Of a DNA stretch of 64,000 nucleotides, positions 15,079 to 54,552 are shown in pieces. Within the stretch, counting starts at the first letter, position 1, and each line of letters starts with the position of its first letter. The notes beneath the pieces are model-generated. The model saw only the letters and a program-made list of their open reading frames with translations, did no database searches and was not told the DNA's origin. Source of the DNA: Fulvitalea axinellae. Its GTDB lineage: Bacteria > Bacteroidota > Bacteroidia > Cytophagales > Cyclobacteriaceae. The translations under genes were made by a program, and so were the position numbers. The stretch is from NCBI RefSeq assembly GCF_036492835.1, contig NZ_AP025315.1, forward strand, positions 310,001-374,000. The letters are read 5' to 3'.

Positions 15079-15125
15079 AACATGCGTCCAATAGCCGTTT
15101 GAAGCTGGCCTTTGAAACGCATGTT
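15079..15125 (-). terminator. Stem-loop terminator of the minus-strand sulfatase
   Basis: AACATGCGT at 15079-15087 pairs with ACGCATGTT at 15117-15125 around a 29-base loop that contains a second GCC/GGC pairing. On the minus strand it is followed by AGTTTTTC, so it could end the sulfatase transcript. Confidence 0.5.
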
Positions 15126-15137
15126 ACATATATTTTC

Positions 15138-16571: not shown

Positions 16572-16701
16572 AGTCCAAAAAAGTTAAAGGATATAATCTG
16601 TAAGCAATCTATGAATCGAGATTTAACAAAGGTGGGCTATAGTAGGTGTATAATGTTCGGGTTATAAAATATAGACGTCTTTTATATTGTTGAGTGGAAT
16701 T

Positions 16702-29713: not shown

Positions 29714-30886
29714 TTACTGGTAATTTTTAACGCAACGAAAACCGATGTGCTCCATTCCCGTGTCGGGAGTCGTTCGCATTCGGCGCGAATTCCGGTATCC
29801 TGAGCACCAATCGTCATGACACAGGAAGGAGCCCCCGCGAACTACTTTGTTCTTTTCGTTTCTACCAATTACCTCAAAAGAGACTTCCGGGCCAAGAGGA
29901 TTGTGCGCAAGGTCACCAGATTCTTTTTTTAGTACATCGTAATAATTGGCTCCATACCAATCGGAAGTCCATTCCCAGACATTTCCGGCCATATCATAAA
30001 GTCCATAGCCATTTGGAGGGAACGATTTTACTGGTGAAGTCCTCTCGAATCCATCCTCTGCCGTATTAAAATAAGGAAATTCTCCCTGTAGGTGGTTTGT
30101 CATGTGTTTGCCGCTTTCTGTCTTCTCATTTCCCCACGGATACATCTTGTCGATCAACCCGCCTCGCATGGCGTATTCCCATTCGGCTTCGGTCGGTAAT
30201 CTTTTTCCGGCCCACTTAGCGTATGCTTGCGCATCATACCAACTAACATGCACTACAGGATGATTATCCTTCCCTTTTATGTCACTATCAGGCCCCTGAG
30301 GGTGTTTCCAGTTGGCTCCTCGTGTTAAAGTCCACCAGTTTTCAAGGTGTCTTTTCGAAGCGTTTTTCTCTGCGTAGTTAAATACAAGGGATGCGGGCTG
30401 TAGATTTTCTTCAGCTGGACGAGGAGTGTTTGGCGGTAATTGAAGCTTTAATTCTTCCCAATTTATTGGCTGTTCGGCAGTTGTGATGTAACCTGTCGAT
30501 TCTATGAATTTTCTAAATTCTGCATTTGTCACCTCATGCTCATCTATCCAGAAGTTGTCGATACGGACTTTATGTTTAGGAAACTCGTCGTTTTGGGATA
30601 ATGCGGTTTGTGGCATGCCCGCAAATTCATCGGAATAGTCACCTCCCATATTAAAGGTTCCGGCTGGTATCAGGACCATTCCCTCTGTATTTGAAGCTAA
30701 TTCAGGATTGGTTTTAATGCTGTTTATCTGCGAAAGGTAAGTAGTGCTTAGATGTTGTTTGCCAATGAAACTAGTTGGTGCGCTGGAGTTGCAAGAGACG
30801 GGCTCATTTGATTGTATTTTTCCTTTGTTGCTTTCACAGGCCCACATGCTATATAATATAGCGAAAGGGATGAGTCGTTTTTTCAT
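29714..30886 (-). CDS. Formylglycine-generating enzyme (sulfatase-activating), lipoprotein
   Basis: 390 residues with a lipoprotein signal (ILYSMWAC). The FGE-sulfatase fold begins GMVLIPAGTFNMGG (about 69-82) and continues through HPVVHVSWYDAQAYAKWAGKRLPTEAEWEYAMRGG and YGLYDMAGNVWEWTSDW. It ends with GGSFLCHDDWCSGYR, in which Cys356 and Cys361 match the catalytic C-x4-C pair of human and bacterial FGE. It oxidises the sulfatase cysteine to formylglycine using copper and oxygen. Likely clients are the two sulfatases at 15138 and 31074. It is divergent from the second sulfatase and appears to be the first gene of the run leading into the Bat operon. Confidence 0.9.
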   Translation of the reverse strand: MKKRLIPFAILYSMWACESNKGKIQSNEPVSCNSSAPTSFIGKQHLSTTYLSQINSIKTNPELASNTEGMVLIPAGTFNMGGDYSDEFAGMPQTALSQNDEFPKHKVRIDNFWIDEHEVTNAEFRKFIESTGYITTAEQPINWEELKLQLPPNTPRPAEENLQPASLVFNYAEKNASKRHLENWWTLTRGANWKHPQGPDSDIKGKDNHPVVHVSWYDAQAYAKWAGKRLPTEAEWEYAMRGGLIDKMYPWGNEKTESGKHMTNHLQGEFPYFNTAEDGFERTSPVKSFPPNGYGLYDMAGNVWEWTSDWYGANYYDVLKKESGDLAHNPLGPEVSFEVIGRNEKNKVVRGGSFLCHDDWCSGYRNSRRMRTTPDTGMEHIGFRCVKNYQ

Positions 30887-31073: not shown

Positions 31074-32642
31074 ATGATGAGACTGAAACCATTATTTATT
31101 TGCGTGGCAGTACTATTGACTCAGATAGTTATGCCGGCAAGTGCGGAAAAGAGTCCCGCTGCAAAGAAGGGGAAGAACAGGCCGAATATTCTGGTTATTT
31201 TTGGGGATGATATCGGTATTACAAACGTAAGTGCGTATAGCCGTGGGCTGATGGGCTACCAGACTCCTAACATCGACCGAATAGCCAAAGAAGGCGTAAT
31301 GTTTACCGATTATTACGCCGAACAAAGCTGTACGGCGGGGCGGGCTGCGTTTATTACGGGCCAATCTCCAGTAAGAACAGGTTTGACAAAAGTGGGACTT
31401 CCTGGTTCTCCTGTCGGGCTTCAGAAAGAAGACCCGACTATAGCCCAGTTATTGAAGCCGATGGGCTACGCTACGGCTCAATTCGGCAAGAATCACTTTG
31501 GCGACAGAGACGAGTTTCTTCCTACAAATCATGGTTTTGATCTGTTTTTCGGTAACCTTTACCATTTGAATGCGGAGGAGGAACCGGAAAACCCGGACTA
31601 CCCAAAAAGTATCGAGTTTAAAAAGAAATTTGGGCCAAGAGGGGTTTTGAGAGCTACCGCTGACGGAAAGATCGAGGATACGGGACCACTGACAAAGAAA
31701 AGAATGGAAACCGTAGATTCTGAATTTCTGGCCGCGGCCAAAAAGTGGATAACGGAACAAGTAAAGAATGACCAGCACTTCTTTACTTGGTTTAATACTA
31801 CGGCGATGCATTTCCCGACTTACCCTAGCCCGGCGGCAAGGGGACTTTCGAAAGGGCAAGGGTTTTATGCCGATGTTATGGTTCAACATGACAATTATGT
31901 GGGAGAGCTTCTCAATCTTCTTGATGAATTGGGCATAGCGGATAATACTATAGTAATTTATACTACAGATAACGGTCCGCATTTTAACATGTGGCCTGAT
32001 GGGGCGATTTCCCCGTTCAGAGGAGAAAAAAACACAAACTGGGAAGGCGGTTATCGTGTGCCGGCAATGGTGCGTTGGCCTGCCAAAATACCGGCCGGAG
32101 TGATTTCCAATGAGATTGTTTCGCATATGGATTGGACTCCGACATTGGTTGCCGCTGCGGGAAATGATAAAGTCAGATCACAATTGCTGACCGGACACCA
32201 AGCTGATGGACATACTTTTAAGGTTCATCTTGACGGTTATAATATACTGCCTTACCTGATGGGCAAGGAAGACAAAAGTCCAAGAACAAACTTCTTCTAT
32301 TTCAGTGATGACGGACTGCCTGTGGGGATGCGTACTGGCGATTGGAAATTGGTGTTTGCGGAACAACGTGCGCATGGGTTCGGTGTTTGGGCGGAGCCTT
32401 TCGTGAAGTTGAGGTTACCGCATATCCTGAACTTGAGAAGGGATCCGTTTGAAAGGGCTCCGACTGACGCTAACAATTACGAGAAATTTAGAATTGATCA
32501 CGCCTTTATGATATATAAAGGCCAGGACGAGATGGCCCAATTCCTAAAAACTTTCGTGAAATACCCGGTTCGGCAGAGGCCGGCTTCATTTTCTGTAGAT
32601 CAAATTGCGGAGAAGTTTCTGAAACCAGATTTGGAAAGATAG
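31074..32642 (+). CDS. Arylsulfatase-type sulfatase (CxAxR)
   Basis: 522 residues with a cleavable signal peptide ending near MPASAEK. The core begins NILVIFGDDIGITNVSAYS with the metal Asp pair. The modification site is CTAGR at residues 86-90, an aerobic-FGE-type motif with Ala in place of Pro, followed by FGKNHFGDRDEFLPT and YTTDNGPHFNMWPDG. The C-terminal part (LRRDPFERAPTDANN..., QRPASFSVDQ) resembles the large group of arylsulfatases of marine Planctomycetes and Bacteroidota. Divergent from FGE with a 187-base shared upstream region. Substrate is unknown. Confidence 0.9.
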   Translation: MMRLKPLFICVAVLLTQIVMPASAEKSPAAKKGKNRPNILVIFGDDIGITNVSAYSRGLMGYQTPNIDRIAKEGVMFTDYYAEQSCTAGRAAFITGQSPVRTGLTKVGLPGSPVGLQKEDPTIAQLLKPMGYATAQFGKNHFGDRDEFLPTNHGFDLFFGNLYHLNAEEEPENPDYPKSIEFKKKFGPRGVLRATADGKIEDTGPLTKKRMETVDSEFLAAAKKWITEQVKNDQHFFTWFNTTAMHFPTYPSPAARGLSKGQGFYADVMVQHDNYVGELLNLLDELGIADNTIVIYTTDNGPHFNMWPDGAISPFRGEKNTNWEGGYRVPAMVRWPAKIPAGVISNEIVSHMDWTPTLVAAAGNDKVRSQLLTGHQADGHTFKVHLDGYNILPYLMGKEDKSPRTNFFYFSDDGLPVGMRTGDWKLVFAEQRAHGFGVWAEPFVKLRLPHILNLRRDPFERAPTDANNYEKFRIDHAFMIYKGQDEMAQFLKTFVKYPVRQRPASFSVDQIAEKFLKPDLER

Positions 32643-32665
32643 AGCGACAAACAAACTCAAAATGT

Positions 32666-32700
32666 GAAAGCCGACAGGAAAATCCCCGTCGGCTTTCTTA
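32666..32700 (+). terminator. Rho-independent terminator of the CxAxR sulfatase
   Basis: GAAAGCCGAC pairs with GTCGGCTTTC (10 bases) around a 12-base loop, followed by TTATTTTTT. Confidence 0.85.
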
Positions 32701-32735
32701 TTTTTTCAAGAAATATTTTATGCTGTTAATGAAAA

Positions 32736-33179: not shown

Positions 33180-36100
33180 ATGATGGTTAGACACGGATTT
33201 TTTACGGCATTTAGAAAAATTGTATGGTGGTCCGGGGGTGGCTTAGCGTTGCTCCTATTTTTATTGCCGGGCTTAACGCTCGCGGCAAAGAAGAAAAAGG
33301 GCCACTTCTATGTTAAACGCGACACTTGGGAGGCGACTATGGCGGCTTCCAAGAAAGCTTATGGCGACTACGTCGCTTCTTTGGGATTCACTCCGGTATC
33401 TTCAGGCGTATTGAAACACAAGCAGGCGGCGGAGCCAATTTCCGTTGATGTTAGTGGTTTGTCTGAGCTTATCCTTGTGATCTCTGGCGGAGCGAACGGG
33501 AACTCTTATGACCATGGTGTTTGGGGAAATGCTCGTTTGATCGACAGGAAAGGTAATGTTACTTGGCTTGAGGATCTTGATTGGGTTTCGGCGAAATCGG
33601 GATGGAGAAAGACGACCCCAGGCGCAAATCTTTACGGTGAGAAAGCGAACATTGGAGGTAAGAAGTACGAGCACTGTCTTACTGTTCACGCCGAAGGAAA
33701 AGTTGTTTATAAACTGGATAAGAAATACGCCAAGTTTGAGGCTGAAGTGGGTGTGGACACTCGTGGCGGTAACAAGCGCAGTAGTATTATCTTCCAAGTC
33801 CATGGTTCTGAGCCGGGTAGTGTTCTTCGCGAAGTGGCGAAGGATTTCCCGCAGGAGTCTGGCATGTATAGCCTTTTTGCGGGTACCTCTGGTGCGGATT
33901 ACCTGACTATGGGCGGTACGGAATATGAGCGTGCTTTGCTGACAAAGGTTTTGGGCAAACTCGAAAGCCCTGAATTCTTCAGAAACGAAGCGCTTAAGAT
34001 AAAAGCGAACGGTGGCGAGTCAATCGATTACCTGAAGCTTTTCAAGAAAGTGGTTGGAGCCATTGACGCTCAGGACCAGTTGGCCATGATCGATTTTGAG
34101 GCTATGCGTCTTTCTATCGAAAATATGGACAAGGAGTTCGGAGCTAAGTATAACGGAAAAGCTTACTTGTCTGAGTTGAAGCGTTTGGAATCGCAGAAGC
34201 CGGCCATGGAGCACGCACTTTACAAAGGTGACCCTAAGGCTGTTGCTTGGATTAACAAAACATCAGGATTTAAGCGTAAAGCTTTGATGGCCAACCCGCT
34301 TTTGGATTTTGATCAGCTTCTGGTTGTTCGTCACAAATTGGGTAACAGAGCCAGAACAAGCGGACCAAACGCACCGGATATGGTACTTCCTAGATCAAAC
34401 TGGAAGACTATCGGTTCTACCAGCAACCCAAGCAAAGGGTGGGACACTGAAATCGCTGTTCTTTCTAACCTTAGAGGCGGTGTAGATTCTAAAACTCTCT
34501 ACAAGCCGAAAGGCCCGCACGCTATCACTGACCTTGACTTGCATTTTGACGCTGGCAAAGTGATGTTTACTTCCGCTACTGACAACGGACGTTGGGGATT
34601 GTTCGAAGTGAATATTGACGGTTCGAACGTTAAGCAACTTTCGCCGGATAAGTATCCTGATCTTGACTTTTATGACGCTTGTTATTTGCCTGACGGTCGC
34701 GTGGCGATGGTGTCGAACGTTTCTATGCAGGGTGTTCCTTGCGTAAACGGTTCTGACCCAGTGGGTAGCATGTGCTTGCTCGATCCTGAAACAAGAACTT
34801 TCAAGCAGATCAACTTCGGTCAGGACAATGACTGGGATCCTGTTGTATTGTCGAACGGTCGTATCATGTACCTCCGTTGGGAATACACTGACAACGTTCA
34901 CTATTTCACCAGGGTTTTGATGCACATGAACCCTGACGGAACTGGTAAGAAAGAATACTATGGTAGTGCTTCTTACTGGCCGAACACTATCTTCGACGCT
35001 AAGCCGATTCCGGGTCACAAAACCAAATTGGTAGGTATCGTTTCTGGTCACCACGGTACAGCCCGTTCGGGTGAGTTGGTGATTTTTGATCCAGCTAAAG
35101 GTCGTCAGGAAGCTGACGGAGTGGTTCAGAGAATCCCGGGCCGTGGACAAAAAGTAGAGCCTATTATCAAAGACAAGTTGGTTGACGGCGTATGGCCTCA
35201 GTTCACCAACCCCTACCCTCTTGACGACAACTATTACTTGGTAACGGCCAAGATGAAGCCGGGTGGTCTTTGGGGACTTTACCTTGTCGATACTTTCGAT
35301 AACCTGACTCTTGTAAAAGAATACGAAGGCGAAGGAATCCGTGACGTATTCCCACTTAAGAAGCGTCCGACTCCTCCTGTTATTCCGGACAAGATCAAGC
35401 CAAACGCAAAAGACGCAACTGTTTATATCGCTGATGTTTATGAAGGTCAAGGCCTTAAGGGCGTGAAGCGTGGTTCGGTTAAAGAACTTCGTGTTTTCGC
35501 TTACAAATTTGCGTACAACACTTCTAAGAGTAACAACGATGCCATGGGTATCGAGGCTGCTTGGGACGTGAAGCGTGTTTTGGGTACCGTTCCTGTATAT
35601 GAGGATGGTTCGGCAATGTTTAAAATTCCTGCCAACGTAGCGATTTCTCTCCAACCTTTGGATGAGCATGGCCAAGCGATGCAGATCATGCGTAGCTGGT
35701 TGACCGCTATGCCGGGCGAAACGATTTCTTGTATCGGTTGCCACGAAGACCAGAATACTGTTCCGGTTCCGAAAAGGACAATCGCTTCAAACCGTTCGCC
35801 GGTGGATATCAAGCCTTTCTATGGCGAAGTAAGGCCATTCTCTTTCGTTAACGAAGTGCAGCCGGTACTTGACGCCAAGTGTGTGGGATGTCACAACGGT
35901 AACGACCCTGAGTTGCCAAACTTCGCTGACAAAACTACTCTGCCTTACCGTAACGTAAGCCGCAGTTACTTCGATCTTCAGAAATTCGTACGTCGTCCTG
36001 GTCCGGAGTCTGACCTTCACGTACTTACTCCGATGGACTTCCACGCCAGTACATCTGAAGTGATTATGAAGCTGAACAAAGGACACCATAACGTGAAGCT

Positions 36101-37259
36101 TACTAAAGAAGAGCGTGATCGCTTGGTGACTTGGATTGACCTTAACGTTCCTTATCACGCTGATTTCCATGATGTTCCTGACTACCGCGGTAGTAACCAA
36201 AAGGATCGTCGAGTTCAGTTGATGAAGGAAATCAACAATATGGAGTACACAGCTGAGGACGAATTGGCGCGCGCCAACGCTCTTCGCGAAGCTCGCGGAC
36301 CGATCCAACCGATCATGCCGGAAACAGCTCCCGCTCCGAAATACAAGAAGGTAAAAGCCCGCAACTGGCCATTCGACGCTACAAAAGCTAAAGAATTGCA
36401 AGCCAAAGTTGGAACCGAGACTAAGAAGATTGACTTGGGTAACGGACAGACTATCGAATTGGTGAAAATTCCTGCCGGTGAGTTTGTTATGGGATCTGAT
36501 GACGTTGAGGCTCAGGCTTTGCCAAAGACTCGTGTGAAGGTTAAGAAATCTTACTGGATGGCTAAGTACGAAATCAGTAATGGCCAATTCCGTTCGGTAT
36601 TCCCAGAGCACAACAGCCGTGTGATGGACCAGCAGTGGAAAGACCACACCCGTCCTGGTTACGAAGCCAACCGCGATGAGCAACCCGCTATCAGGATGTC
36701 ATGGCAAGAGGCCCAGGCTTTCTGCGAAGAGTTGAGCAAGAAGACTGGCCTCAAGGTTAAGCTTCCTACTGAGGCTCAGTGGGAATGGGCTTGCCGCGCA
36801 GGTAGCGATAAGGATATGGCATTCGGTGACCAGACAGCTGACTTTACCGCTTACGCTAACTTCGCTGACGAAAGTTTGCAGAAGATGGCCGTTATCGGTG
36901 TGGATCCAAAGCCGATGAACCCGAACCACACTTACTTCAAGTACTACGACTACATCCCGAGAGCTTCCGGCACTAATGACAACAGCATGTTGCAGTCCGT
37001 TTCCGGAAAGTATAAGCCAAACGCGTGGGGCTTGTACGATATGCACGGTAACGTAGCTGAGTGGACTCGTTCGGATTATGTTCCTTACCCTTACAACGCT
37101 AAGGACGGACGTAACGCCGGAAACCTTGATTCGGAAAAAACCGTTCGCGGTGGTTCTTGGAAAGAGCGTCCGCGTCATGGTGCCGCCGGTTACCGTAACG
37201 GATACAAGTCATGGCAGAAGGTTTACAACGTAGGTTTCCGTGTTGTAATCGAAGAATAA
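33180..37259 (+). CDS. Giant di-heme exported protein: NPCBM + hydrazine-synthase-alpha-like + FGE-like domain
   Basis: 1359 residues. A signal peptide (hydrophobic segment about 18-35, cleaved near TLAAKK) is followed by an NPCBM-like carbohydrate-binding domain (about 42-215; LTVHAEGKVVYKL and FEAEVGVDTR are its markers). A helical linker comes next, then a beta-propeller-type region (about 400-720; LHFDAGKVMFTSA, DACYLPDGRVAMVSN) as in hydrazine synthase alpha and TolB/PD40 proteins. Two heme c sites follow, CIGCH at 851 and CVGCH at 901. The C-terminal FGE-sulfatase fold (about 1088-1355) reads GGSWKERPRHGAAGYR where active FGE has its two cysteines, so it cannot make formylglycine. Codon use is strongly biased to CGT, GGT, AAC, GAC and TAC, suggesting very high expression. 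Hydrazine synthesis itself is not implied. Two adjacent ATGs could start translation. Confidence 0.8.
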   Translation: MMVRHGFFTAFRKIVWWSGGGLALLLFLLPGLTLAAKKKKGHFYVKRDTWEATMAASKKAYGDYVASLGFTPVSSGVLKHKQAAEPISVDVSGLSELILVISGGANGNSYDHGVWGNARLIDRKGNVTWLEDLDWVSAKSGWRKTTPGANLYGEKANIGGKKYEHCLTVHAEGKVVYKLDKKYAKFEAEVGVDTRGGNKRSSIIFQVHGSEPGSVLREVAKDFPQESGMYSLFAGTSGADYLTMGGTEYERALLTKVLGKLESPEFFRNEALKIKANGGESIDYLKLFKKVVGAIDAQDQLAMIDFEAMRLSIENMDKEFGAKYNGKAYLSELKRLESQKPAMEHALYKGDPKAVAWINKTSGFKRKALMANPLLDFDQLLVVRHKLGNRARTSGPNAPDMVLPRSNWKTIGSTSNPSKGWDTEIAVLSNLRGGVDSKTLYKPKGPHAITDLDLHFDAGKVMFTSATDNGRWGLFEVNIDGSNVKQLSPDKYPDLDFYDACYLPDGRVAMVSNVSMQGVPCVNGSDPVGSMCLLDPETRTFKQINFGQDNDWDPVVLSNGRIMYLRWEYTDNVHYFTRVLMHMNPDGTGKKEYYGSASYWPNTIFDAKPIPGHKTKLVGIVSGHHGTARSGELVIFDPAKGRQEADGVVQRIPGRGQKVEPIIKDKLVDGVWPQFTNPYPLDDNYYLVTAKMKPGGLWGLYLVDTFDNLTLVKEYEGEGIRDVFPLKKRPTPPVIPDKIKPNAKDATVYIADVYEGQGLKGVKRGSVKELRVFAYKFAYNTSKSNNDAMGIEAAWDVKRVLGTVPVYEDGSAMFKIPANVAISLQPLDEHGQAMQIMRSWLTAMPGETISCIGCHEDQNTVPVPKRTIASNRSPVDIKPFYGEVRPFSFVNEVQPVLDAKCVGCHNGNDPELPNFADKTTLPYRNVSRSYFDLQKFVRRPGPESDLHVLTPMDFHASTSEVIMKLNKGHHNVKLTKEERDRLVTWIDLNVPYHADFHDVPDYRGSNQKDRRVQLMKEINNMEYTAEDELARANALREARGPIQPIMPETAPAPKYKKVKARNWPFDATKAKELQAKVGTETKKIDLGNGQTIELVKIPAGEFVMGSDDVEAQALPKTRVKVKKSYWMAKYEISNGQFRSVFPEHNSRVMDQQWKDHTRPGYEANRDEQPAIRMSWQEAQAFCEELSKKTGLKVKLPTEAQWEWACRAGSDKDMAFGDQTADFTAYANFADESLQKMAVIGVDPKPMNPNHTYFKYYDYIPRASGTNDNSMLQSVSGKYKPNAWGLYDMHGNVAEWTRSDYVPYPYNAKDGRNAGNLDSEKTVRGGSWKERPRHGAAGYRNGYKSWQKVYNVGFRVVIEE

Positions 37260-37287
37260 TCTTCCGAAAGGAATCATGATAATAGTG

Positions 37288-37318
37288 AAAAGGCTTCCCA
37301 ATCGGGAAGCCTTTTCTG
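37288..37318 (+). terminator. Rho-independent terminator of the giant cytochrome gene
   Basis: A perfect 12-base stem (AAAAGGCTTCCC/GGGAAGCCTTTT) with a 4-base loop, 28 bases after the stop codon. Confidence 0.88.
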
Positions 37319-37449
37319 TTATATAGCAGAATATTTTTCAATCCATATTTGTCCTAAATCCCTTTGTAACGATTTGTTTTTGTGTTGCTTATAAGTTCAG
37401 TTGTATTGCGAAATTCTAGCTGGATTATTATTTGTAAATAAACTGGATT

Positions 37450-37497
37450 TTGAAAATGAATCTAAAGAGGTATATTTGTTCGGTAATCTACGAACAA
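37450..37497 (+). promoter_or_regulatory. Promoter with overlapping ArsR-type operator
   Basis: TTG at 37450-37452, an 18-base spacer and TATATTTG at 37471-37478 (perfect TAnnTTTG). A perfect dyad TTGTTCG-N8-CGAACAA at 37476-37497 begins within the -7 element and ends 2 bases before the arsR start codon. A repressor bound there would block both polymerase and translation start, as expected for arsenic-responsive autoregulation. The transcript would have almost no leader. Confidence 0.6.
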
Positions 37498-37499
37498 CT

Positions 37500-37799
37500 A
37501 TGGCGCTATTGGAAAACAACGAAGCTAGACGAAAAAGAATGGCCCGGTATGCGAAAGCGATGGGGCATCCTATCAGGCTGTATGTGCTTGAGCTTTTGTC
37601 AAAACAGTCTTGTTGTTATAGTGGAGATCTGAGTGAGGAATTGCCGATAGCCAAATCTACCTTGTCCCAGCACCTTAAGGAACTGAAGGACGCAGGTCTT
37701 ATTCAAGGACAAATCGAGACCCCCAGAGTCAAGTATTGTATAAATAGGGAGAATTGGAAAGAGGCGAGTACGCTTTTCAAAACCCTTTTTGATTCGTAA
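37500..37799 (+). CDS. arsR: ArsR/SmtB family repressor
   Basis: 99 residues from ATG 37500. A winged helix-turn-helix with MGHPIRLYVLELLSKQSCCYSGDLSEELPIAKSTLSQHLKELKDAGLIQGQ. A Cys-Cys pair sits just before the recognition helices (near residue 38), where arsenic-binding cysteines occur in some ArsR proteins. Its DNA-binding helix is STLSQHLKELKDAG. It is the first gene of an arsenical-resistance cluster, with dyads at its own promoter and just before arsE. A longer in-frame version would start upstream of the promoter and is rejected. Its inducer is probably a trivalent arsenical (inference). Confidence 0.87.
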   Translation: MALLENNEARRKRMARYAKAMGHPIRLYVLELLSKQSCCYSGDLSEELPIAKSTLSQHLKELKDAGLIQGQIETPRVKYCINRENWKEASTLFKTLFDS

Positions 37800-37816
37800 A
37801 AAAATTTATCTTTAAA

Positions 37817-37841
37817 GTTCGTTGTTTTACGAACAACGAAC
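37817..37841. promoter_or_regulatory. Second operator-like dyad between arsR and arsE
   Basis: GTTCGTTGT-N7-ACAACGAAC, a perfect 9-base dyad containing the same GTTCG/CGAAC half-sites as the operator upstream of arsR. A TATCTTTA (one mismatch to TAnnTTTG) lies just before it at 37807-37814. It may be an internal operator-promoter, or a hairpin that trims expression of arsR relative to arsEFG. Confidence 0.5.
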
Positions 37842-37856
37842 ATAAATGCGTTTACT

Positions 37857-38096
37857 ATGGAAATTATGGTTTTGGGCCCAGGATGCCCCAAATGCAAAAA
37901 ACTAGAAGAGGCTACGAATCAGGCTGTTGCCCAGTCTGAAACACAGGTCAACGTTACGAAGGTGGAAGATATCATGAAAATTATGGAATACGGTATCATG
38001 AGCACCCCTGCTTTGGTGATAGATGGTGAAGTCGTGATGAAAGGTAGGGTCCCTTCCGTAAATGAACTGGCCGAATTGATTACATCAAAAAAATGA
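37857..38096 (+). CDS. arsE: Small thioredoxin-like protein ArsE
   Basis: 79 residues with the compact thioredoxin fold of the MTH895/TM0996 redox-disulfide group: MEIMVLGPGCPKCKKLEEAT with active-site CPKC (residues 10-13), and the cis-proline region STPALVIDGEVVMKGR. In Shewanella arsEFG clusters, such a protein acts with ArsF to reduce nitro groups of aromatic arsenicals (established for that system; here by homology of gene order). It is cytosolic, with no signal peptide. The stop overlaps arsF start by 4 bases (ATGA). Confidence 0.8.
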   Translation: MEIMVLGPGCPKCKKLEEATNQAVAQSETQVNVTKVEDIMKIMEYGIMSTPALVIDGEVVMKGRVPSVNELAELITSKK

Positions 38097-38527
38097 ATTC
38101 CATGAGAAAATTAGTAGCCATTATCGTTTTTGCGCTTATGATTAGTGCTGGCCAGACTTGGGCCCAATGTTGTGCCACTACCGCTTCGGCAAAAGAAAAG
38201 ACGGCGTGTGTTACCGCCAAGAATGCCGAAAGCCCCGTAAAGGTATATTATTTTCATGCATCACGTCGATGCGATACCTGCGTGGCCGTAGAGAAGGTAA
38301 CCAAAGAGGCTGTTCAGGAATATTTTGGGGATATAAAATCGTTTCAATCCGTAAATAGGGAAAAAGAAGCTGATTTGGTAAAGAAGTTCAAAGTTAGCGG
38401 ACAAACTCTACTAGTTGTTAGTGGAGACAAGCAAGTTAACCTCACAAGCTTGGCGTTTCTGAATGCCCGAATGCACCCCGATAAGCTTAAGAAGAAAATA
38501 AAATCAACGATCAGCTCAATGGAATAA
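38093..38527 (+). CDS. arsF: ArsF-like nitroreductase-subunit protein, exported thioredoxin fold
   Basis: 144 residues. A signal peptide (MRKLVAIIVFALMISAGQTWAQ) is followed by a thioredoxin-like domain, VKVYYFHASRRCDTCVAVEKVTKEAVQEYF with CDTC, and a conserved C-terminal SGQTLLVVSGDKQVNLTSLAF. The short Cys-rich region right after the signal (QCCATT...KTACV) offers extra thiols. It matches the family named nitrophenyl compound nitroreductase subunit ArsF. It may work with ArsE across the membrane through the ArsG permease. Start ATG 38093 (overlap) or 38102 are both possible. Confidence 0.78.
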   Translation: MNSMRKLVAIIVFALMISAGQTWAQCCATTASAKEKTACVTAKNAESPVKVYYFHASRRCDTCVAVEKVTKEAVQEYFGDIKSFQSVNREKEADLVKKFKVSGQTLLVVSGDKQVNLTSLAFLNARMHPDKLKKKIKSTISSME

Positions 38528-38530
38528 GCG

Positions 38531-39229
38531 ATGGAAGTGTTGTTGGAATTTTTGGAAACGTCTAAGGCGCCGGCGCTTTCAGCGTTTGTCTTGGGCCTAA
38601 TGACAGCCATAAGCCCTTGCCCGTTAGCCACGAATATTACGGCGATAGGTTTTATTGGAAAAGATATTTCGGATAGAAATACCGTTTTTGTCAAAGGCTT
38701 GGTCTACACCCTTGGCAGAGCGCTTACCTATACCGGAATTGGGTTGGTTTTCTATTTCGGCGCAAGCCAATTCGAAATATCTGGATTTTTACAAGATTGG
38801 GGAGAAAAGCTCCTCGGCCCTCTTCTTATTCTGGTGGCCTTGATGATGCTCGATGTTTTTAAAATTAATTTCCCTGGATTATCGGATTTGACCGAAAAGC
38901 TAGGGCAAAAATCGGCGAACAGTCTTTTGGGCGTATTGGCTTTGGGAGTAGTTTTCGCATTGGCGTTTTGTCCCTATAGTGGCGTATTATATTTCGGAAT
39001 GCTTATCCCGATGACTATTAGCGGGCCGGAAGGACTTTACCTGCCTATTATTTTCGCTTTGGCTACCGGTATTCCCGTTATCATATTCGCTTGGTTTATT
39101 GCCTTCAGCGTTTCGTCAATAGGTAAAATGTACAATAAGATAGCAATTGTTGAACTGTGGTTTAGACGAATTGTCGCTTTGGTTTTCCTTTTGGCGGGAT
39201 TGTATTACGTGGCTTTGTTCTTTATTTAA
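38531..39229 (+). CDS. arsG: ArsG-family permease (CcdA-like) for aromatic arsenicals
   Basis: 232 residues with six hydrophobic helices in the DsbD/CcdA pattern. The paired motifs MTAISPCPLATN (about 30-41) and ALAFCPYSGVLY (about 148-159) each contain a cysteine next to a proline, as in DsbD transmembrane domains. ArsG proteins extrude trivalent aromatic aminobenzyl arsenicals in the Shewanella system. The CcdA-like cysteine pair also suits electron transfer to ArsF, so the function may be transport, redox or both. It lies 3 bases after arsF and 11 before the ArsP-type gene. Confidence 0.82.
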   Translation: MEVLLEFLETSKAPALSAFVLGLMTAISPCPLATNITAIGFIGKDISDRNTVFVKGLVYTLGRALTYTGIGLVFYFGASQFEISGFLQDWGEKLLGPLLILVALMMLDVFKINFPGLSDLTEKLGQKSANSLLGVLALGVVFALAFCPYSGVLYFGMLIPMTISGPEGLYLPIIFALATGIPVIIFAWFIAFSVSSIGKMYNKIAIVELWFRRIVALVFLLAGLYYVALFFI

Positions 39230-39240
39230 ATAATACAGAA

Positions 39241-40290
39241 ATGCTGGATAAATCGATAGCCATAAACCGTAAGGCAAATGGTTGGCTCCTACCCATTCTT
39301 CTATTGCTGATTTGGATAGTTATCTATCGTAATCTCACTGCGATTTCCGATTTTATCGTATTGGATTTAATGGGAATGCAAGCAGGCGAACATCTTACCG
39401 AAACACTACGGTTTTTTATATTCGAAGTTCCTAAGGTAATGCTCCTGCTGGCCTTAATCATTTTCGTGGTAGGAGTTCTCAGGACTTATGTGACTCCAGA
39501 AAAAACAAGGAGTTTACTTGAAGGCAAATCATTGTTTACGGGCAATATTCTAGCCTCTGTTTTGGGAATAATTACGCCTTTTTGTTCATGTTCGGCGATC
39601 CCTCTTTTTCTCGGGTTTATAGAAGCTGGAGTGCCTTTGGGCGTAACTTTTTCTTTCCTGATCGCCGCTCCAATGATCAACGAAGTGGCTCTGATACTGC
39701 TTGCGGGAATGTTTGGTTGGAAAATCGCAATGATTTATGTATTGACAGGCTTGGCTATAGCGATATTCTCGGGATGGATAATCGCAAAACTAAGGCTGGA
39801 ACGTTATGTAGCGAACTGGGTATATAAAGTCAAATCCGGTGGCCCAAAAGAAACGACAGTAGCCATGACACAGGTGCAACGTGTAGCTGAGGGTTTTTCC
39901 GAAGTAAAGAGCACGGTCGGTAAGATTTGGCTTTATATCGTTATCGGAATAGCGGTGGGTGCCGGTGCGCACGGTTACGTGCCCGAGGACTTTCTCGGTG
40001 AGTTGTTGGGAAAAGACAATCTTCTCGCTGTCCCTATGGCCATTGTGTTTGGCGTGCCGATGTATTCCAACGCCGCTGGGGTAATTCCAATCGTTAGTGT
40101 ATTAATTGAGAAAGGAGTTTCTCTAGGTACGGCATTGGCATTTATGATGTCGGTTATAGCACTTTCCCTTCCGGAAATTATAATTCTTAAAAAAGTATTG
40201 AAATGGCAATTGATAGCCGTTTTTGTGGGAATCGTTACTCTGGGGATTATTTCGGTGGGTTTTCTCTTTAACCATATTATTCAAATCTGA
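39241..40290 (+). CDS. arsP: ArsP-like permease (DUF318 family)
   Basis: 349 residues with 8 or so membrane helices. The TPFCSCSAIPLFLGFIEAG motif (about 112-130), rich in cysteine, is the hallmark of ArsP/DUF318 permeases, and a second half repeats the pattern at GVPMYSNAAGVIP. ArsP effluxes trivalent organoarsenicals such as methylarsenite and roxarsone(III); some relatives move other metals. It is the last gene of the arsR-E-F-G cluster and is followed by a strong terminator. Together with ArsG it gives two different exits for organoarsenicals. Confidence 0.82.
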   Translation: MLDKSIAINRKANGWLLPILLLLIWIVIYRNLTAISDFIVLDLMGMQAGEHLTETLRFFIFEVPKVMLLLALIIFVVGVLRTYVTPEKTRSLLEGKSLFTGNILASVLGIITPFCSCSAIPLFLGFIEAGVPLGVTFSFLIAAPMINEVALILLAGMFGWKIAMIYVLTGLAIAIFSGWIIAKLRLERYVANWVYKVKSGGPKETTVAMTQVQRVAEGFSEVKSTVGKIWLYIVIGIAVGAGAHGYVPEDFLGELLGKDNLLAVPMAIVFGVPMYSNAAGVIPIVSVLIEKGVSLGTALAFMMSVIALSLPEIIILKKVLKWQLIAVFVGIVTLGIISVGFLFNHIIQI

Positions 40291-47727: not shown

Positions 47728-49125
47728 TCAATTCAGGTCATACATTATGAATGTGAAATTGTGGTCTACCATATCGGCGTTACTGTTGAGTTTGTAGGTC
47801 CTAACCACAAAGTCGTTAGGGTTTTTCTCTTCCAAAGCGACTCCGCCTGAGGCCGTATCCCTGATTCCGCCGATAACGCCATAATACTGCTCCCCGAAAT
47901 TATGGGTGATCCGGTATTTGGAGTCGGCTATTTTAGCGCTTGTGAATGGAAACCCACCGACTCGGTCTTTACCCCAATAATCCTTCCTTGTACCCGCCGA
48001 GGAAACATTCCCGGCACAAATAACCTTAAGGAAATCTTCCCGGTCAGTGGCCCAATTCGGGATTTTGTCCGCTTGGGTTTTCGCTTCTCCAGCCTTGTTA
48101 AGAGCGTTGACAGCTTGGTCATACGCCACCTTTACAGCCTTGGAAGTGGCCAACACATTACCGTTGTCAGAGCTGACCAAATCACTCCTGTCCAGATTAA
48201 ATCCCGTTTTCTTAGTGAACTTGGGCTCCTTACCATTAGCCAGATCATAAGCGCTATCCGCCCGGTCTTTGGCCTTCTTAACGGCTGAACTGGTGGCCAA
48301 CGTATCCGACGAGCCGGAAGTGTCGCTGTCGCTCTTATCCTTATTAAACCCCGTTTTCTTGGTAATCTTCGGCTCCTTGCCTTCGGCCAGAGAATAAGCG
48401 CTGTCCGCCCGGTCCTTGGCCTTCTTAACGGCTGAACTGGTGGCCAGCGTATCCGACGAGCTGGAAGTGTCGCTGTCGCTTTTGTCCTTGTTAAACCCGC
48501 TTTTCTTGGTGATCTTCGGCTCCTTGCCTTCGGCCAGAGAATAGGCGCTGTCCGCCCGGTCCTTGGCCTTCTTAACGGCTGAACTGGTCGCCAACGTGTC
48601 CGACGAGCCGGAAGTGTCGCTATCGCTCTTATTGAGGTTAAATGCGCTGTTTTTATCGAATGCAGGCTCCTTACCTCCAATCTGCTCAAAAGCCGTCGCC
48701 ATCTTCGCTGTAAGAGCTTCGAGCGTATCGGGCCTTACAAACTGAAAAGGCTGTCCGGCTTCGGAGAACCTGAGATAGCGGGACATATAAACGTCTTTCA
48801 GGCTTTTGTCCTTGTACCGGCTCGGACCTATGGCCGGGTCCACCTCCTCGACGAGCTCCACCTTTCCTCCGGCGTTCTTGGTCGATGCCCGAAAGTGGAT
48901 TGTTTCGCCCTGCCAAGCGACCCAGCCCTCGTTTACCTGTTCGCCCACCGACGCGGTGGCCAAGTTTTCCATCCCCGTAAGGATAAGGGCTTTTGTAGGG
49001 CCCGTGAGGCCCACGGTTCCACACAGCGCCCGAAAAGCCGAGACATAGGCCTGTTGCATGTAGAGCAGTGTCGTACTCTCAAGGGGAAAGCCCTTCAACT
49101 TGCCCTCCAGTTCCAGTCTTTTCAT
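47728..49125 (-). CDS. Tail fibre protein with four 49-residue repeats
   Basis: 465 residues. The N-terminal 150 residues probably attach to the baseplate. Residues 151-346 are four tandem repeats of 49 residues (each starting GKEP and including TLATSSAVKKAKDRADSAY), related to the phage fibre repeat with LATxxAVxxAYDxA that occurs in P2-like fibres. The last ~120 residues form a tip domain, with ITHNFGEQYYGVIGGIRD and a C-terminal FTFIMYDLN. It should form a trimeric fibre for receptor binding. Its start overlaps the upstream gpI-like gene by 4 bases (ATGA). Confidence 0.85.
   Translation of the reverse strand: MKRLELEGKLKGFPLESTTLLYMQQAYVSAFRALCGTVGLTGPTKALILTGMENLATASVGEQVNEGWVAWQGETIHFRASTKNAGGKVELVEEVDPAIGPSRYKDKSLKDVYMSRYLRFSEAGQPFQFVRPDTLEALTAKMATAFEQIGGKEPAFDKNSAFNLNKSDSDTSGSSDTLATSSAVKKAKDRADSAYSLAEGKEPKITKKSGFNKDKSDSDTSSSSDTLATSSAVKKAKDRADSAYSLAEGKEPKITKKTGFNKDKSDSDTSGSSDTLATSSAVKKAKDRADSAYDLANGKEPKFTKKTGFNLDRSDLVSSDNGNVLATSKAVKVAYDQAVNALNKAGEAKTQADKIPNWATDREDFLKVICAGNVSSAGTRKDYWGKDRVGGFPFTSAKIADSKYRITHNFGEQYYGVIGGIRDTASGGVALEEKNPNDFVVRTYKLNSNADMVDHNFTFIMYDLN
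48088..48675 (-). repeat. Four tandem 147-bp in-frame repeats in the fibre gene
   Basis: Unit boundaries are 48675-48529, 48528-48382, 48381-48235 and 48234-48088. Units 1-3 are nearly identical at DNA level and the fourth is diverged. Unit length is exactly 49 codons, so unit loss or gain keeps the frame. Confidence 0.85.
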
Positions 49126-49643
49126 ACCGTTACTATTTTGTATTTCTTTCCCGCCAATTTGAATTTGTTGACCAGCGATTTCATCACCGCCACGTCGTAG
49201 TTTACCGTACTGGGCACCTGTATTATGAAATCGGCGTAATCCGCCGCGTATTCCTCCTTCAGGTGCGTGTATGTCGGGCCGTCCGTATAGATCGGGTTGT
49301 TCTCTACGTTCAAATAAGAGAACACCCGAAGGGGAGAGCTTCCGTCCGCGATCCTGATCAGCGGATCGGTAGGCCCGGCGCCGAGGTTGAAGCGGTCGTT
49401 AAGCAGTTTCTCCATATACACGACCGTACTGTTGTGCCGGAGATCGTAGAGCGTCTTGTCCCGGAAGCTCCACAGGTCCGGGATTTTGCTCTCCCTGTTC
49501 TCCGTGACGCAGTAGGCCGTATACAGCTCGACTACCGGAGCCGTAAGGCTAAGCAACCACGCCAGACGCTTTGGCTTGCGGAAGGCCACGGGAACCATCC
49601 ACGTGACCAGCTTTTTGTAATCGATATTAAATATCCGGCTCAT
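49122..49643 (-). CDS. Tail protein I-like baseplate/fibre connector
   Basis: 173 residues. Position after the J-like gene and before the fibre is that of P2 gpI/Mu gp48, which links baseplate wedge to fibre. The sequence (VPVAFRKPKRLAWLLSLTAPVVELYTAYC, HNSTVVYMEKLLNDRF) resembles Bacteroidota homologues of this position, but direct similarity to gpI is weak. It overlaps the J-like gene by 17 bases and the fibre gene by 4 bases. Confidence 0.55.
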   Translation of the reverse strand: MSRIFNIDYKKLVTWMVPVAFRKPKRLAWLLSLTAPVVELYTAYCVTENRESKIPDLWSFRDKTLYDLRHNSTVVYMEKLLNDRFNLGAGPTDPLIRIADGSSPLRVFSYLNVENNPIYTDGPTYTHLKEEYAADYADFIIQVPSTVNYDVAVMKSLVNKFKLAGKKYKIVTV

Positions 49644-50562
49644 AGGCTATTACCGCTCCCGAATTTTCGGACCTGTCGGCTAACGCCTTAATCGCCAGCT
49701 CCCTGCCCGCATTGTCCAACACTGTATAAGGTTCCGCTTTCCACTCCCCGGCTATGGCCAGATAACCGGCGAAGGGACTGTAAAGGCTCTTGAATTCGAA
49801 CCAGTCCAAACCGCCGTATCGGGCCTCCATCCGTACCGCCGTTACATCGCTTACGCCTTCGGCTTTCTGGATACGGTCGAGCAGGTCGGTATTGACGAAA
49901 TCGCCGTTAAAGTCCAAGTTGGCCAGGTAAGTGGTAACCGCCTCGTTTACGGGAAAGGCCCTCGGATCGGTTACCAAAGAGCCGTCCGGCGACATCACCA
50001 ACGGGTTGTATCTTATCCAGATTCTCATACGCAGATCGTCCGGCGGATTGTTTACTATATCCAGCCTGTTGCCCGCGTCTTTTACCTTGTTCATGTATGC
50101 GCTGAAGCGGGTGTATTGCTCCTGGCTAAGAGGCTGTACCGTTCCGTTTTCCTCGGTCGCCACCTTGATCACCAGCACCTCTTCGCCTTCGACCACGGCG
50201 CAACGTCTGATCACGGCCAAGTCTTCCGTCTCTTCCTCCGTGGGCTTGCGGTATTCTTCGCCTTCCGAAACCGCCTGGGCGTAGCGCTCGCCGTCCCAGA
50301 CAAGATCCAGCCCGTCCAGAAAACCCAGGCATTGTTCCCTGTACCAGCGGATGTTATGCGGACGGAACCGCTCGGCGATCTCCGCCACCTCGGCCCGGTG
50401 AGCGTCCATGAGCTTCTCCAGCGCCCAGATAGCCACGGCCACCACGTAAGCCCACAGGCGCCACTCGGCCACTTTCTTGGGGCTGTCCAGAGTGGCCAGT
50501 CCGGGCTCCGCTTCCTTGGCGGTTAGGATGGATTGTTGTATCTGTGTTATACTTCTTGCCAT
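49627..50562 (-). CDS. Baseplate J-like protein
   Basis: 311 residues. Features of the baseplate wedge J/gp47 family are an N-terminal helical part ITQIQQSILTAKEAEP, the central QPLSQEQYTRFSAYMNKVKDAGNRLDIVNNPPDDLRMRIWIRYNP, and the region VNEAVTTYLANLDFNGDFVNTDLLDRIQKAEGVSDVT that matches the C-terminal J domain. It forms the wedge ring of the baseplate. The start is 1 base downstream of the stop of the small gene before it. Confidence 0.7.
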   Translation of the reverse strand: MARSITQIQQSILTAKEAEPGLATLDSPKKVAEWRLWAYVVAVAIWALEKLMDAHRAEVAEIAERFRPHNIRWYREQCLGFLDGLDLVWDGERYAQAVSEGEEYRKPTEEETEDLAVIRRCAVVEGEEVLVIKVATEENGTVQPLSQEQYTRFSAYMNKVKDAGNRLDIVNNPPDDLRMRIWIRYNPLVMSPDGSLVTDPRAFPVNEAVTTYLANLDFNGDFVNTDLLDRIQKAEGVSDVTAVRMEARYGGLDWFEFKSLYSPFAGYLAIAGEWKAEPYTVLDNAGRELAIKALADRSENSGAVIAYEPDI

Positions 50563-50563
50563 A

Positions 50564-50776
50564 TTACATAGGTATAATCGCCCCTATTCTAACTTCCGGC
50601 TTCGGTCGGTGTTGCCGGACGCTGAGCGCTAAAAAGTACGGTTTGTTCCGTACGCGGTCCAAGTCCGGAACGGTCACGCCCCGGACCGACACGGCCCCGG
50701 TCCGGGTTTCGCGGAGCCGTTCGGACGGGGCCGACTTCCCCCGGACGCTTACCGATTGTGTTTTGGCCGAACTCAC
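50564..50776 (-). CDS. Small Arg/Val-rich phage protein
   Basis: 70 residues, with two similar halves (SVSVRGKSAPSE and AVSVRGVTVPDL). No family is recognised. Support is positional: its start overlaps the upstream gene by 4 bases (ATGA), its stop is 1 base from the J-like start, and no other frame fills the gap. Basic composition and strand-like pattern suggest a small structural or capping protein. Confidence 0.5.
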   Translation of the reverse strand: MSSAKTQSVSVRGKSAPSERLRETRTGAVSVRGVTVPDLDRVRNKPYFLALSVRQHRPKPEVRIGAIIPM

Positions 50777-52077
50777 GCCGTCACCTCCTTGCGGAGCGTG
50801 AACCCGATCTTGATCTGCGTTACGTTCGGGATCAGCTGGGCGGTGTCCGGGTCATATCCCGTGTCCATGTTTCCCTTCCCGTTCGAGTCTACGAAGCCTA
50901 CGCCGGGCTCCATCTTCTTCCAGCCGGTCCACGCTCCGTTGGAAAAGAAATCGGCTTCGAACACGAAAGCGCTCCGCTGTTCCGTGGCGGGGTCCGCGGT
51001 TTCGTACGGGGTGTCGTCCATCCGGGCGTTGGCCCAGCCTTCGGCGCTCCACGCCGTTTCGGAAGCGAAATCGATTCCGTCCACCGTAAGCGCATGCCCG
51101 AGCGGAATGGCCGTCGAGTGGAAAACGCCCTCTTGGCTGTTATCTAGCGTGATGAAAAATCCCGATTCCAAAACCAAATTCTGGCTGGTCGATTTGTAGT
51201 CGTTCCACAAGCTTTCCGCCGTTAGCCTTACGGCTACGTCGTACGCCCCCAGATATCCGCCCGTATCGCCTCCGTATCTCACCTTTTCCGAAACTTCGGG
51301 CCGTAACGAAAAGTCCGCGAACATGAAATTTGATTCCGTAACGTCTATCGGGTTGTTGAAAATATCGAAAGCGGTTGTCGCTCCAATATCATTCTCATCA
51401 AACGATTTGAGCCACTCTCCGCCCGCTTTCAGCTCCGCCAGACTTTTCAGCTCACCGTTGCGGTTTAGCTTCGTGTTTACAAAAAGCGAATAGTCATGGG
51501 CGTAAACGTCCGAGTACATATAAGACGTCTCTCTCAGATCGACAAAGATACAGTCCCGCACATCCGCCGACCGATCGGCGATGTAGCAATCGACGGCCGT
51601 CACGTTCCTCATTATCAGGTGATTTTGGCTGGACGTGCTGACCAAAGTCGATTTGATGATAACGGAATCATAAATGTCTTTCGAGCTTACGTTAAGGCAA
51701 AAACAACCGTAGAAATAGTTGCCGTTGTTGCCGTGATTGGATCTGCAATTTATTGCCCAAATATTATGGAATTTGGACGCTAAAATATATCCGCTTGTTT
51801 TTACGATCACATAGCCGTCACCGACAATCGTACGGTAACTATAGTCGGAAGAAAGATTTATCCAGGCAGAATCCAGCATGCATACACTGGAGTTTAGAGA
51901 AGACTGGTAAAACTTCTCAAAGCTCTTAAGCGGATTCGCCGGCCCGCCGTAAGCCGTGGGATCGGGATTGTCAACCGGATGATAAGCGGGATCTTCGGGC
52001 AAGTCCCGCCCGTAACGGGCCGAAACGTAATACCCGGACGTGCCGTAATCCGTTATCTTCTTTGTCCACTTTCTCAT
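50773..52077 (-). CDS. Beta-helix-type structural protein (tailspike-like)
   Basis: 434 residues from ATG 52077, which overlaps the upstream gene by 4 bases. The middle (about 60-210) has the repeating pattern of a right-handed parallel beta-helix: short strands alternating with Asn/Ser turns, with HNIWAINCRSNHGNNGNYFYGCF, NHLIMRNVTAVDCYIADRSADVRDCIFVD. Such folds are found in tailspikes that bind or cleave surface glycans. No catalytic residues could be assigned. The C-terminal third is a different beta-rich domain (WTGWKKMEPG...IKIGFTLRKEV). Confidence 0.6.
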   Translation of the reverse strand: MRKWTKKITDYGTSGYYVSARYGRDLPEDPAYHPVDNPDPTAYGGPANPLKSFEKFYQSSLNSSVCMLDSAWINLSSDYSYRTIVGDGYVIVKTSGYILASKFHNIWAINCRSNHGNNGNYFYGCFCLNVSSKDIYDSVIIKSTLVSTSSQNHLIMRNVTAVDCYIADRSADVRDCIFVDLRETSYMYSDVYAHDYSLFVNTKLNRNGELKSLAELKAGGEWLKSFDENDIGATTAFDIFNNPIDVTESNFMFADFSLRPEVSEKVRYGGDTGGYLGAYDVAVRLTAESLWNDYKSTSQNLVLESGFFITLDNSQEGVFHSTAIPLGHALTVDGIDFASETAWSAEGWANARMDDTPYETADPATEQRSAFVFEADFFSNGAWTGWKKMEPGVGFVDSNGKGNMDTGYDPDTAQLIPNVTQIKIGFTLRKEVTA

Positions 52078-52274
52078 ACCGCCGTGTATTTTGTTTTCTT
52101 GCCCAGATAAGCGTCCCCGTGCTCCGGCGGATAGCCGTACGTGTTTTCCTCTACGATCTTCCGCCCGTCTTCCAAGTCCCATTCCCGGCGCTCCCAGCGT
52201 CCGCTTACCGGGCATTTCTCCGTTTTGGTGGCCGGGTGTTCGGCTATGTATTTTTGTATTTCTTCGCTTGTCAT
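52074..52274 (-). CDS. Small phage protein in the fibre block
   Basis: 66 residues (MTSEEIQKYIAEHPATKTEKCPVSGRWERREWDLEDGRKIVEEN...). No family recognised. It overlaps both neighbours by 4 bases (ATGA at each end), which supports translation. A single cysteine and charged composition suggest a soluble protein. Confidence 0.6.
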   Translation of the reverse strand: MTSEEIQKYIAEHPATKTEKCPVSGRWERREWDLEDGRKIVEENTYGYPPEHGDAYLGKKTKYTAV

Positions 52275-54551: not shown

Positions 54552-54552
54552 A

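Follow-up and report, generated by a model that had tools for sequence, protein, structure and literature searches.

A di-heme protein of Fulvitalea axinellae related to the hydrazine synthase alpha subunit carries NPCBM and FGE-like domains and may serve a sugar-directed redox complex

We analyzed a 64,000-nucleotide stretch of the Fulvitalea axinellae genome (contig NZ_AP025315.1, positions 310,001 to 374,000; hereafter the window, with positions counted from its first letter) and focused on a gene at 33180–37259 (+), which encodes a di-heme protein related to the alpha subunit of hydrazine synthase (HZS). The genome (7.39 Mb, 15 contigs) contains eight HZS_alpha genes. We propose that an HZS-like redox complex directed at sugars exists in the periplasm and that these eight genes, that of the window among them, encode its alternative alpha subunits, all of which would share one beta-gamma core; taken as a whole, this statement appears to us evenly poised between right and wrong. 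Its sequence-based foundation is much firmer: the relatives of the window gene very probably encode an alpha/beta-gamma pair homologous to the HZS-like pair.

Domain Organization and Heme Sites

The gene is a single intact open reading frame (ORF) of 1359 amino acids, and its features were assigned as follows.

33180..37259, +, HZS-alpha-like di-heme protein (ORF and domain matches)
33180..33284, +, putative Sec signal peptide, residues 1–35, no lipobox (N-terminus judged by eye)
33561..33812, +, NPCBM/NEW2 domain, residues 128–211, the best of two stretches (Pfam)
34470..35459, +, candidate counterpart of the beta-propeller of HZS alpha, residues 431–760 (inferred from domain order)
35472..35747, +, HZS_alpha middle domain, residues 765–856 (Pfam and profile alignment)
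35730..35744, +, CxxCH 851–855 at the HZS heme alpha-I site, followed by the invariant E856 and by N859, not Tyr, at +4 (profile alignment)
35880..35894, +, CxxCH 901–905 at the HZS heme alpha-II site (profile alignment)
36084..36086, +, H969, without exception among the rows compared and in register with alpha-His772, which is the distal heme alpha-II ligand (residue number from a manual count)
36456..37247, +, FGE-like domain, residues 1093–1356 (Pfam)
37149..37196, +, FGE motif GGSWKERPRHGAAGYR, both catalytic Cys absent (alignment with a true FGE)

Pfam identified NPCBM (residues 128–211; 5.7e-30, 104.6 bits, cut-off 23.9), HZS_alpha (PF18582; residues 765–856; 2.2e-34, 118.3 bits, cut-off 26.6) and FGE-sulfatase (residues 1093–1356; 4.7e-40, 138.3 bits, cut-off 23.3), each well above its cut-off. 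The NPCBM domain is predicted to bind carbohydrate. The propeller region had no Pfam match, and its profile alignment to HZS alpha was non-significant. An earlier note, made from the letters alone, had described a single 1359-residue frame with an NPCBM domain and CxxCH motifs starting at residues 851 and 901, and the ORF, Pfam matches and motif positions bear this out. Its description of an exported surface protein holds in part: export is probable, judging by eye from the signal peptide, and the surface location is conjectural.

The C-terminal domain matched structures of FGE, PvdO and PorK/GldK, and it differs from these in lacking the catalytic Cys pair and in being fused to a cytochrome. 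The FGE fold is C-type-lectin-like. When aligned to the true FGE of the window, none of the 32 alpha rows, that of the window protein included, had a Cys in either catalytic column; one row (L016; locus and genome numbers are our own) has a Cys nearby, but in another column. The fold lacking both catalytic cysteines was thus correctly recognized in the earlier note, and an active FGE is ruled out by the absence of the pair.

Comparison with Hydrazine Synthase

A phmmer search with the window protein as single query covered HZS alpha from Kuenenia stuttgartiensis HzsABC (PDB 5c2v, chain 5c2v_A) in its alpha-II region only, and a core-only profile was needed for the rest. Used in this form, the core of the window protein aligned with 5c2v_A at 1.8e-22, with its two c-heme motifs in register with both CxxCH of that chain, in the HZS order. 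Together with the HZS_alpha Pfam match, this upholds the earlier assignment as an HzsA-like di-heme protein. Residues were mapped by hand on printed alignments (alpha, 5c2v_A chain index plus 27; gamma, chain index plus 39), with HZS residue numbers taken from PMC12758564 and PMC12607021, of which the latter also gives heme properties of HZS. The alignment of H969 with alpha-His772 lies in a significant domain (3.8e-07), and H969 is invariant in 30 of 30 rows and in 29 of 29 of a second alignment. The same invariance was found for C521, H625, PGE 845–847 and E856. The alpha alignments held 21 of the 30 alphas in one case and 29 in another; the alpha of L033, which looks split or doubled and is truncated by a contig end, was omitted.

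Some differences from HzsABC concern residues that define hydrazine synthesis. The position of alpha-Tyr591 (His587 +4), the proximal ligand of heme alpha-I, is N859 in the window protein, and only L017 has a Tyr there among the aligned rows. The beta-gamma homologues, the copy in the F. axinellae genome included, lack gamma-Cys165 (the third thioether) and have no Cys in the aligned stretch, and the gamma-His144 column is occupied by Ile (counted by hand). In 21 of 22 beta-gamma rows an extra Cys precedes the gamma-I heme motif by seven residues; that it might provide a third attachment to the heme, on the opposite side, is speculation. At alpha-Cys303 (Zn site) the alignment is non-significant, and the invariant C521 lies elsewhere in alpha. 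Beta and gamma are fused here, as they are in Scalindua according to PMC12758564, the NPCBM and FGE-like domains are additions to the HZS plan, and the gene neighbors in relatives are of sugar type. The NCBIfam model hydrazine_alpha gave 50.4 of the 800 bits needed, far under its cut-off, and hydrazine_BC (fused form) gave 109 of 1250 bits on the F. axinellae beta-gamma, also under its cut-off. A true hydrazine synthase is ruled out by the missing residues (alpha-Tyr591, gamma-Cys165 and gamma-His144) and the NCBIfam scores, in agreement with the earlier note, which had argued against hydrazine synthesis.

According to PMC12758564, no protein closely related to hydrazine synthase has a known function, and HZS-like alpha/beta-gamma clades I–IV exist outside anammox bacteria; in the sections covered, alpha is named for Planctomycetota, Desulfobacterota and a small number of further groups, while Bacteroidota appear there solely in connection with beta-gamma. 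That paper further describes FG-GAP neighbors and alpha homologues without Tyr591 for clades I–III, the absence of alpha-His772 in clade I, and a Trp at gamma-144. The present proteins resemble these clades, as described there, in having co-localized alpha and fused beta-gamma homologues that have lost HZS key residues. They differ in H969 at the His772 position, Ile at gamma-144, the extra gamma-I Cys, the sugar operon and the NPCBM/FGE fusion, in a comparison that covers clades I–III. Relative to the gene pairs of that paper, co-localization is seen in 17 of 20 relative loci and not for the window gene, whose beta-gamma lies elsewhere in the genome. PMC10732223 suggests that HZS-like enzymes may use other substrates. 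Among the literature matches listed, none dealt with HZS-like complexes of Bacteroidota or with a part played by such complexes in the use of sugars; the supplement of PMC12758564, outside this search, may list Bacteroidota alphas.

A Fused Beta-Gamma Partner in Relatives

A scan of named genomes, which reaches close relatives only, yielded 20 relatives of the window protein, all titled Bacteroidota (41–50% identity). In 19 of them the alignment ran almost to the C-terminus of the query, stopping at most a few residues short, and that of L033 was partial. The comparison of gene neighborhoods that the earlier note had proposed identified, in 17 of the 20 loci, a gene near alpha that belongs to a single cluster, a fused HZS beta-gamma homologue; of the other three, L019 and L024 are confined to short contigs and L032 begins at the alpha gene. 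The beta-gamma protein of these relatives combines a beta-propeller with two hemes, at both gamma heme motifs. It matched HZS gamma and HZS beta at 1.1e-18 and 1.8e-18 in a direct search, and at 1.3e-25 and 4.2e-29 as a profile; one beta-gamma alignment used 9 of 17 sequences. This conserved di-heme neighbor supplies a candidate for the electron partner, for which the earlier note had offered none. A ResB/CcsA gene (heme attachment) adjoins alpha in 10 of the 20 loci, and cytochrome c assembly genes are present in the F. axinellae genome.

The F. axinellae genome contains one strong beta-gamma match (5.3e-254) and three further matches that are short and weak. The strong match lies in a run (L043) of genes for a Mala_s_1-like propeller, beta-gamma, chorismatase/RidA-like, lyxose-isomerase-like, VOC-like, DhaK, DhaL and LsrF-like proteins, which were recognized by BLAST except for the VOC-like label, given by eye. 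The run has no alpha, so any complex formed in this organism would have to draw its alpha from another locus. We surveyed 395 Bacteroidota genomes (F. axinellae counted, at most three beta-gamma candidates scored per genome). HZS_alpha matches occurred in 17 of them, 13 above the cut-off, and matches to HZS_alpha at E ≤ 1e-30 and to beta-gamma at E ≤ 1e-60 fell in the same two genomes, F. axinellae and G382. HZS_alpha was present in 5 of 39 near genomes (F. axinellae again counted). Among genomes chosen for having alpha, beta-gamma is present in each of the 13 that encode a full-length strong alpha, in one case as a contig-end fragment only, and G004, with a short alpha, has a more distant beta-gamma.

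Two further arrangements were observed. In another genus of the same family (L047:8815-12283, +), a short alpha (484 amino acids, one CxxCH) adjoins a beta-gamma with three CxxCH, a pair that appears to be a different HZS-like subtype. At L070:5580-6458 (-), a Mala_s_1-like propeller gene directly adjoins a stand-alone alpha and is the only operon gene recognized there.

Paralogues and Family Distribution

The architecture of the window protein also occurs in Parabacteroides, Carboxylicivirga, Prolixibacteraceae and Sediminicola. HzsA-like proteins had been described in the earlier note as mostly planctomycetal or verrucomicrobial; a scan that reaches close relatives only adds full-length ones in Bacteroidota, gut Parabacteroides included. 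Both hemes are present in every full-length alpha listed. The tree comprised 31 alpha rows (L017, L019, L023–L025, L027, L030, L033 and L047–L049 were omitted) and placed the window alpha and three paralogues from the same genome in one group (support 100/100). Most operon alphas form a different clade (15 rows, 97/99), which lies apart from this group. That clade includes the alpha L069 of a polysaccharide utilization locus (PUL), and the operon alpha L045 falls outside it.

The three nearest paralogues share 79–89% identity in their propeller, HZS and heme parts (84–85% in the propeller region, residues 431–760), 68–77% in FGE, and 48–61% in the NPCBM head and the next stretch. This pattern fits a model in which the core is kept constant for docking and the head varies with what it recognizes. 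The dN/dS ratio (nonsynonymous to synonymous substitution rates) of the window alpha was low, 0.08 against its nearest paralogue (L014) and 0.13 against L013, with dS near saturation, a further sign that the gene is no artefact.

Sugar-Type Operons and Glycan Loci

The operons of relatives also contain IclR and a D-lyxose-isomerase-like cupin, together with chorismatase-like and DhaK/DhaL genes. The cupin of one relative matched D-lyxose/D-mannose isomerases at 2.5e-14 and is putatively exported, judging by eye from its N-terminus. A DhaK kinase and an LsrF-like thiolase occur together in 7 of the 20 relative loci. The LsrF-like protein scored 435 bits against a curated cut-off of 297 for 3-hydroxy-5-phosphonooxypentane-2,4-dione thiolase and matched LsrF structures at 3.6e-100. 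Autoinducer-2 (AI-2) is catabolized by a route that involves LsrK and LsrF. The present gene set resembles this route in its thiolase, which is above the curated cut-off, and differs in that the adjoining kinase is DhaK/DhaL and that the set is joined to HZS-like genes.

Xylose genes were found near two alphas. In Carboxylicivirga mesophila (L017), XylE and XylA, both above cut-offs, follow the alpha gene on the opposite strand (14856–17744, -). At L069 (1455–4401, +), about 3.4 kb separate alpha from XylE, which again scores above its cut-off and stands beside a XylA-like frame with 69% identity to that of L017. Frames of 463 and 438 amino acids at L031 equal the xylose isomerase and D-xylose transporter frames in length, a match by length alone.

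Other alphas are placed among glycan-type genes, in the orders SusC-SusD-GH88-alpha (L069), SusC-SusD-IclR-FeADH-alpha-GH2 (L073; SusC and IclR by BLAST) and, in the F. axinellae genome, sulfatase-sulfatase-alpha-GH2 (L011). L046, from another genus, mirrors L011 (identities of 67% for alpha, 73% and 66% for the sulfatases and 53% for GH2), and SusC-SusD adjoin alpha at the F. axinellae paralogue L012. No glycan-type neighbors were seen among the genes scanned at L071, L074 and L076. A qNOR-type NorB lies at L013:14421-16706 (+), about 2.4 kb from the paralogue alpha of that locus.

Local Context of the Window Gene

The features around the window gene were assigned as follows.

29714..30886, -, neighboring true FGE with both catalytic Cys, RGGSFLCHDDWC (domain match and alignment)
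31074..32642, +, neighboring sulfatase, probably on a separate transcript (domain match)
32661..32702, +, terminator-like hairpin between the sulfatase and the alpha gene (-20.4 kcal/mol, z -5.9)
37287..37316, +, terminator-like hairpin 3' of the alpha gene (-23 kcal/mol, z -7.9)

The upstream hairpin carries a T-tract; it is absent from the list of the general terminator scan and was scored separately. Because hairpins flank it on both sides, the alpha gene is probably transcribed alone. The region upstream of it had no match to a Bacteroidota-type promoter pattern, which occurred at chance-level numbers across the window, and a sigma-70 promoter scan likewise remained at chance level.

One true FGE and two sulfatases (31074–32642, +; 15138–16571, -) lie within 20 kb of the alpha gene, as the earlier note had stated, in a genome with 62 sulfatase matches. 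Three of the eight F. axinellae alphas have a sulfatase match within 5 kb (0.8 expected, p 0.04; within 10 kb, p 0.13), as assessed by shuffling over the four alpha-bearing contigs, with distances measured to domain matches. A sulfatase operon for the window gene is weakened by this test and by the intervening hairpin, and the link between the window alpha and its sulfatases is weak. Therefore, the link to glycans rests on NPCBM, the relatives and the paralogues, not on the local sulfatases; the glycan theme of the earlier note stands with respect to the operons and PULs of relatives and is weak in its local sulfatase component.

Other genes of the window form recognizable groups. Directly after the alpha gene, 37401–40290 (+) encodes an ArsR-type regulator, a small multi-Cys protein with no Pfam match, a DsbD-like protein and an ArsP-like permease, a possible metal/arsenic or thiol-redox operon. 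At 2147–6110 (+), an octaheme cytochrome of the tetrathionate reductase family (TIGR04315, 562.6 bits, cut-off 375) is followed by cytochrome b561 (3724–4383) and a sulfur-transport/rhodanese protein (4911–6110), perhaps a sulfur-oxyanion redox cluster. The phage-tail-like genes at 47728–59086 (-), among them a tail fibre repeat protein (47728–49125) and a 791-amino-acid minor tail protein (56711–59086), may represent either a prophage or a tail-like particle.

Proposed Complex and Alternative Explanations

In the proposed complex, the alpha core (propeller region, HZS_alpha domain and two c-hemes) would dock in trans onto the one fused beta-gamma, whose gene stands at another locus; this partner would contribute a beta-propeller and a CcP/MauG-like di-heme part. 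The fast-changing N-terminal NPCBM head and the dead FGE-like domain would hold or orient a carbohydrate, on which the heme alpha-I pocket would act, while the beta-gamma hemes and heme alpha-II would exchange electrons, in one direction or the other, with cytochromes of the periplasm. The product would enter a cytosolic route through a ketose kinase (DhaK/L) and then the LsrF-like thiolase. The lyxose isomerase, the xylose genes and LsrF point to a C5 unit as a possible substrate, and oxidation would be likelier than reduction in a catabolic gene set. The sequences themselves establish the domains and heme sites, the homology of alpha and of beta-gamma, their linkage in relatives and co-occurrence, the 8:1 gene ratio and the placement of some other alphas in PULs; the physical association in trans, the sugar substrate, the direction in which electrons move and the roles of the NPCBM and FGE-like domains are inferred from them.

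Several findings weigh against this proposal. The co-occurrence of alpha and beta-gamma over the 395 genomes rests on one genome besides F. axinellae. In G093, G286, G011 and G034, which have weaker or shorter HZS_alpha proteins, no beta-gamma was found at E ≤ 1e-20, and G227 has weak HZS_alpha matches in long frames (1346 and 1235 amino acids) without a strong beta-gamma. Beta-gamma lies beside none of the eight F. axinellae alphas, the window alpha included, and four of them (L009, L010, L014 and L015) showed neither a sulfatase within 5 kb nor SusCD among the neighbor genes scanned (37 ORFs, not all neighbors, with open-ended ORFs at locus ends omitted). The window alpha gene itself looks monocistronic, the sulfatase proximity of the F. 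axinellae alphas is marginal, and no SusD match occurred in the 22 window proteins scanned beside it, where a PUL would have its SusCD pair. Of 29 alphas, all with HZS_alpha, 21 have NPCBM and 25 have the FGE-like domain, so neither of these two domains is essential. With DhaK/LsrF in 7 of 20 loci, the sugar route may be lineage-specific, and the LyxI-like protein of F. axinellae has no signal peptide as judged by eye.

The alpha paralogues might instead be glycan-binding electron conduits or redox sensors near the envelope that only relay electrons, with beta-gamma as the enzyme. The replacement of alpha-Tyr591 by N859, which may leave heme alpha-I with the usual His ligation, the dead FGE domain and the ratio of eight alphas to one strong beta-gamma fit this explanation, but C521, H625, PGE 845–847 and E856, the candidate lining of heme alpha-I, are among the most conserved residues, which is more than a scaffold needs; we regard it as a serious minority possibility. 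Nitrogen chemistry, in which an HZS-like complex would reduce NO or make N-N or N-C bonds for the handling of NO (nitric oxide) or hydroxylamine, is improbable: among HZS-like relatives, solved structures were found for anammox HZS only, the alpha-His772 equivalent is kept and a qNOR-like gene lies near the L013 paralogue, but the equivalents of alpha-Tyr591, gamma-Cys165 and gamma-His144 are absent and the operon genes are of sugar type.

Still less probable is an accessory role in which the FGE-like protein would aid the maturation or docking of adjoining sulfatases. A sulfatase adjoins alpha in the window and at L011/L046 and lies near L013, but the catalytic Cys are absent in 32 of 32 rows, a hairpin separates the window sulfatase from alpha, and five of the eight F. 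axinellae alphas have no sulfatase within 5 kb, in line with the marginal proximity values. Fusion by assembly error, the failure that the earlier note had foreseen for its reading, and chance fusion are refuted, and we assign them almost no probability: homologues in independent assemblies of several families are near full-length with the same domains, paralogues in the same genome share the architecture, and nothing was found in favor. The sugar-directed complex with interchangeable alphas remains our preferred explanation, at the strength given at the outset.

Implications

The origin of hydrazine synthase is debated, and a homologous alpha/beta-gamma pair is found here in readable metabolic gene sets. 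These bacteria include isolated strains, among them Parabacteroides, so that the role of HZS-like complexes outside anammox can be probed with deletion mutants grown on sugars. Matches to HZS_alpha or beta-gamma are not markers of anammox. The Bacteroidota, gut Parabacteroides included, might hold a second class of HZS architecture, a modular sugar-directed redox complex in which several interchangeable carbohydrate-targeted alphas serve one beta-gamma di-heme core and which feeds a kinase-thiolase route for a C5 dicarbonyl similar to AI-2/DPD (4,5-dihydroxypentane-2,3-dione); this broader idea is tentative, and we lean against it. If it were true, the ancestor of the anammox enzyme would be placed among glycan-processing cytochromes. 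If the sugar-directed complex proposed here is real, Bacteroidota would have heme redox chemistry among their means of using glycans. The frequent placement of relatives in sugar-use operons and glycan-use loci suggests that an enzyme plan known from nitrogen-cycling bacteria leads a second life directed at sugars.

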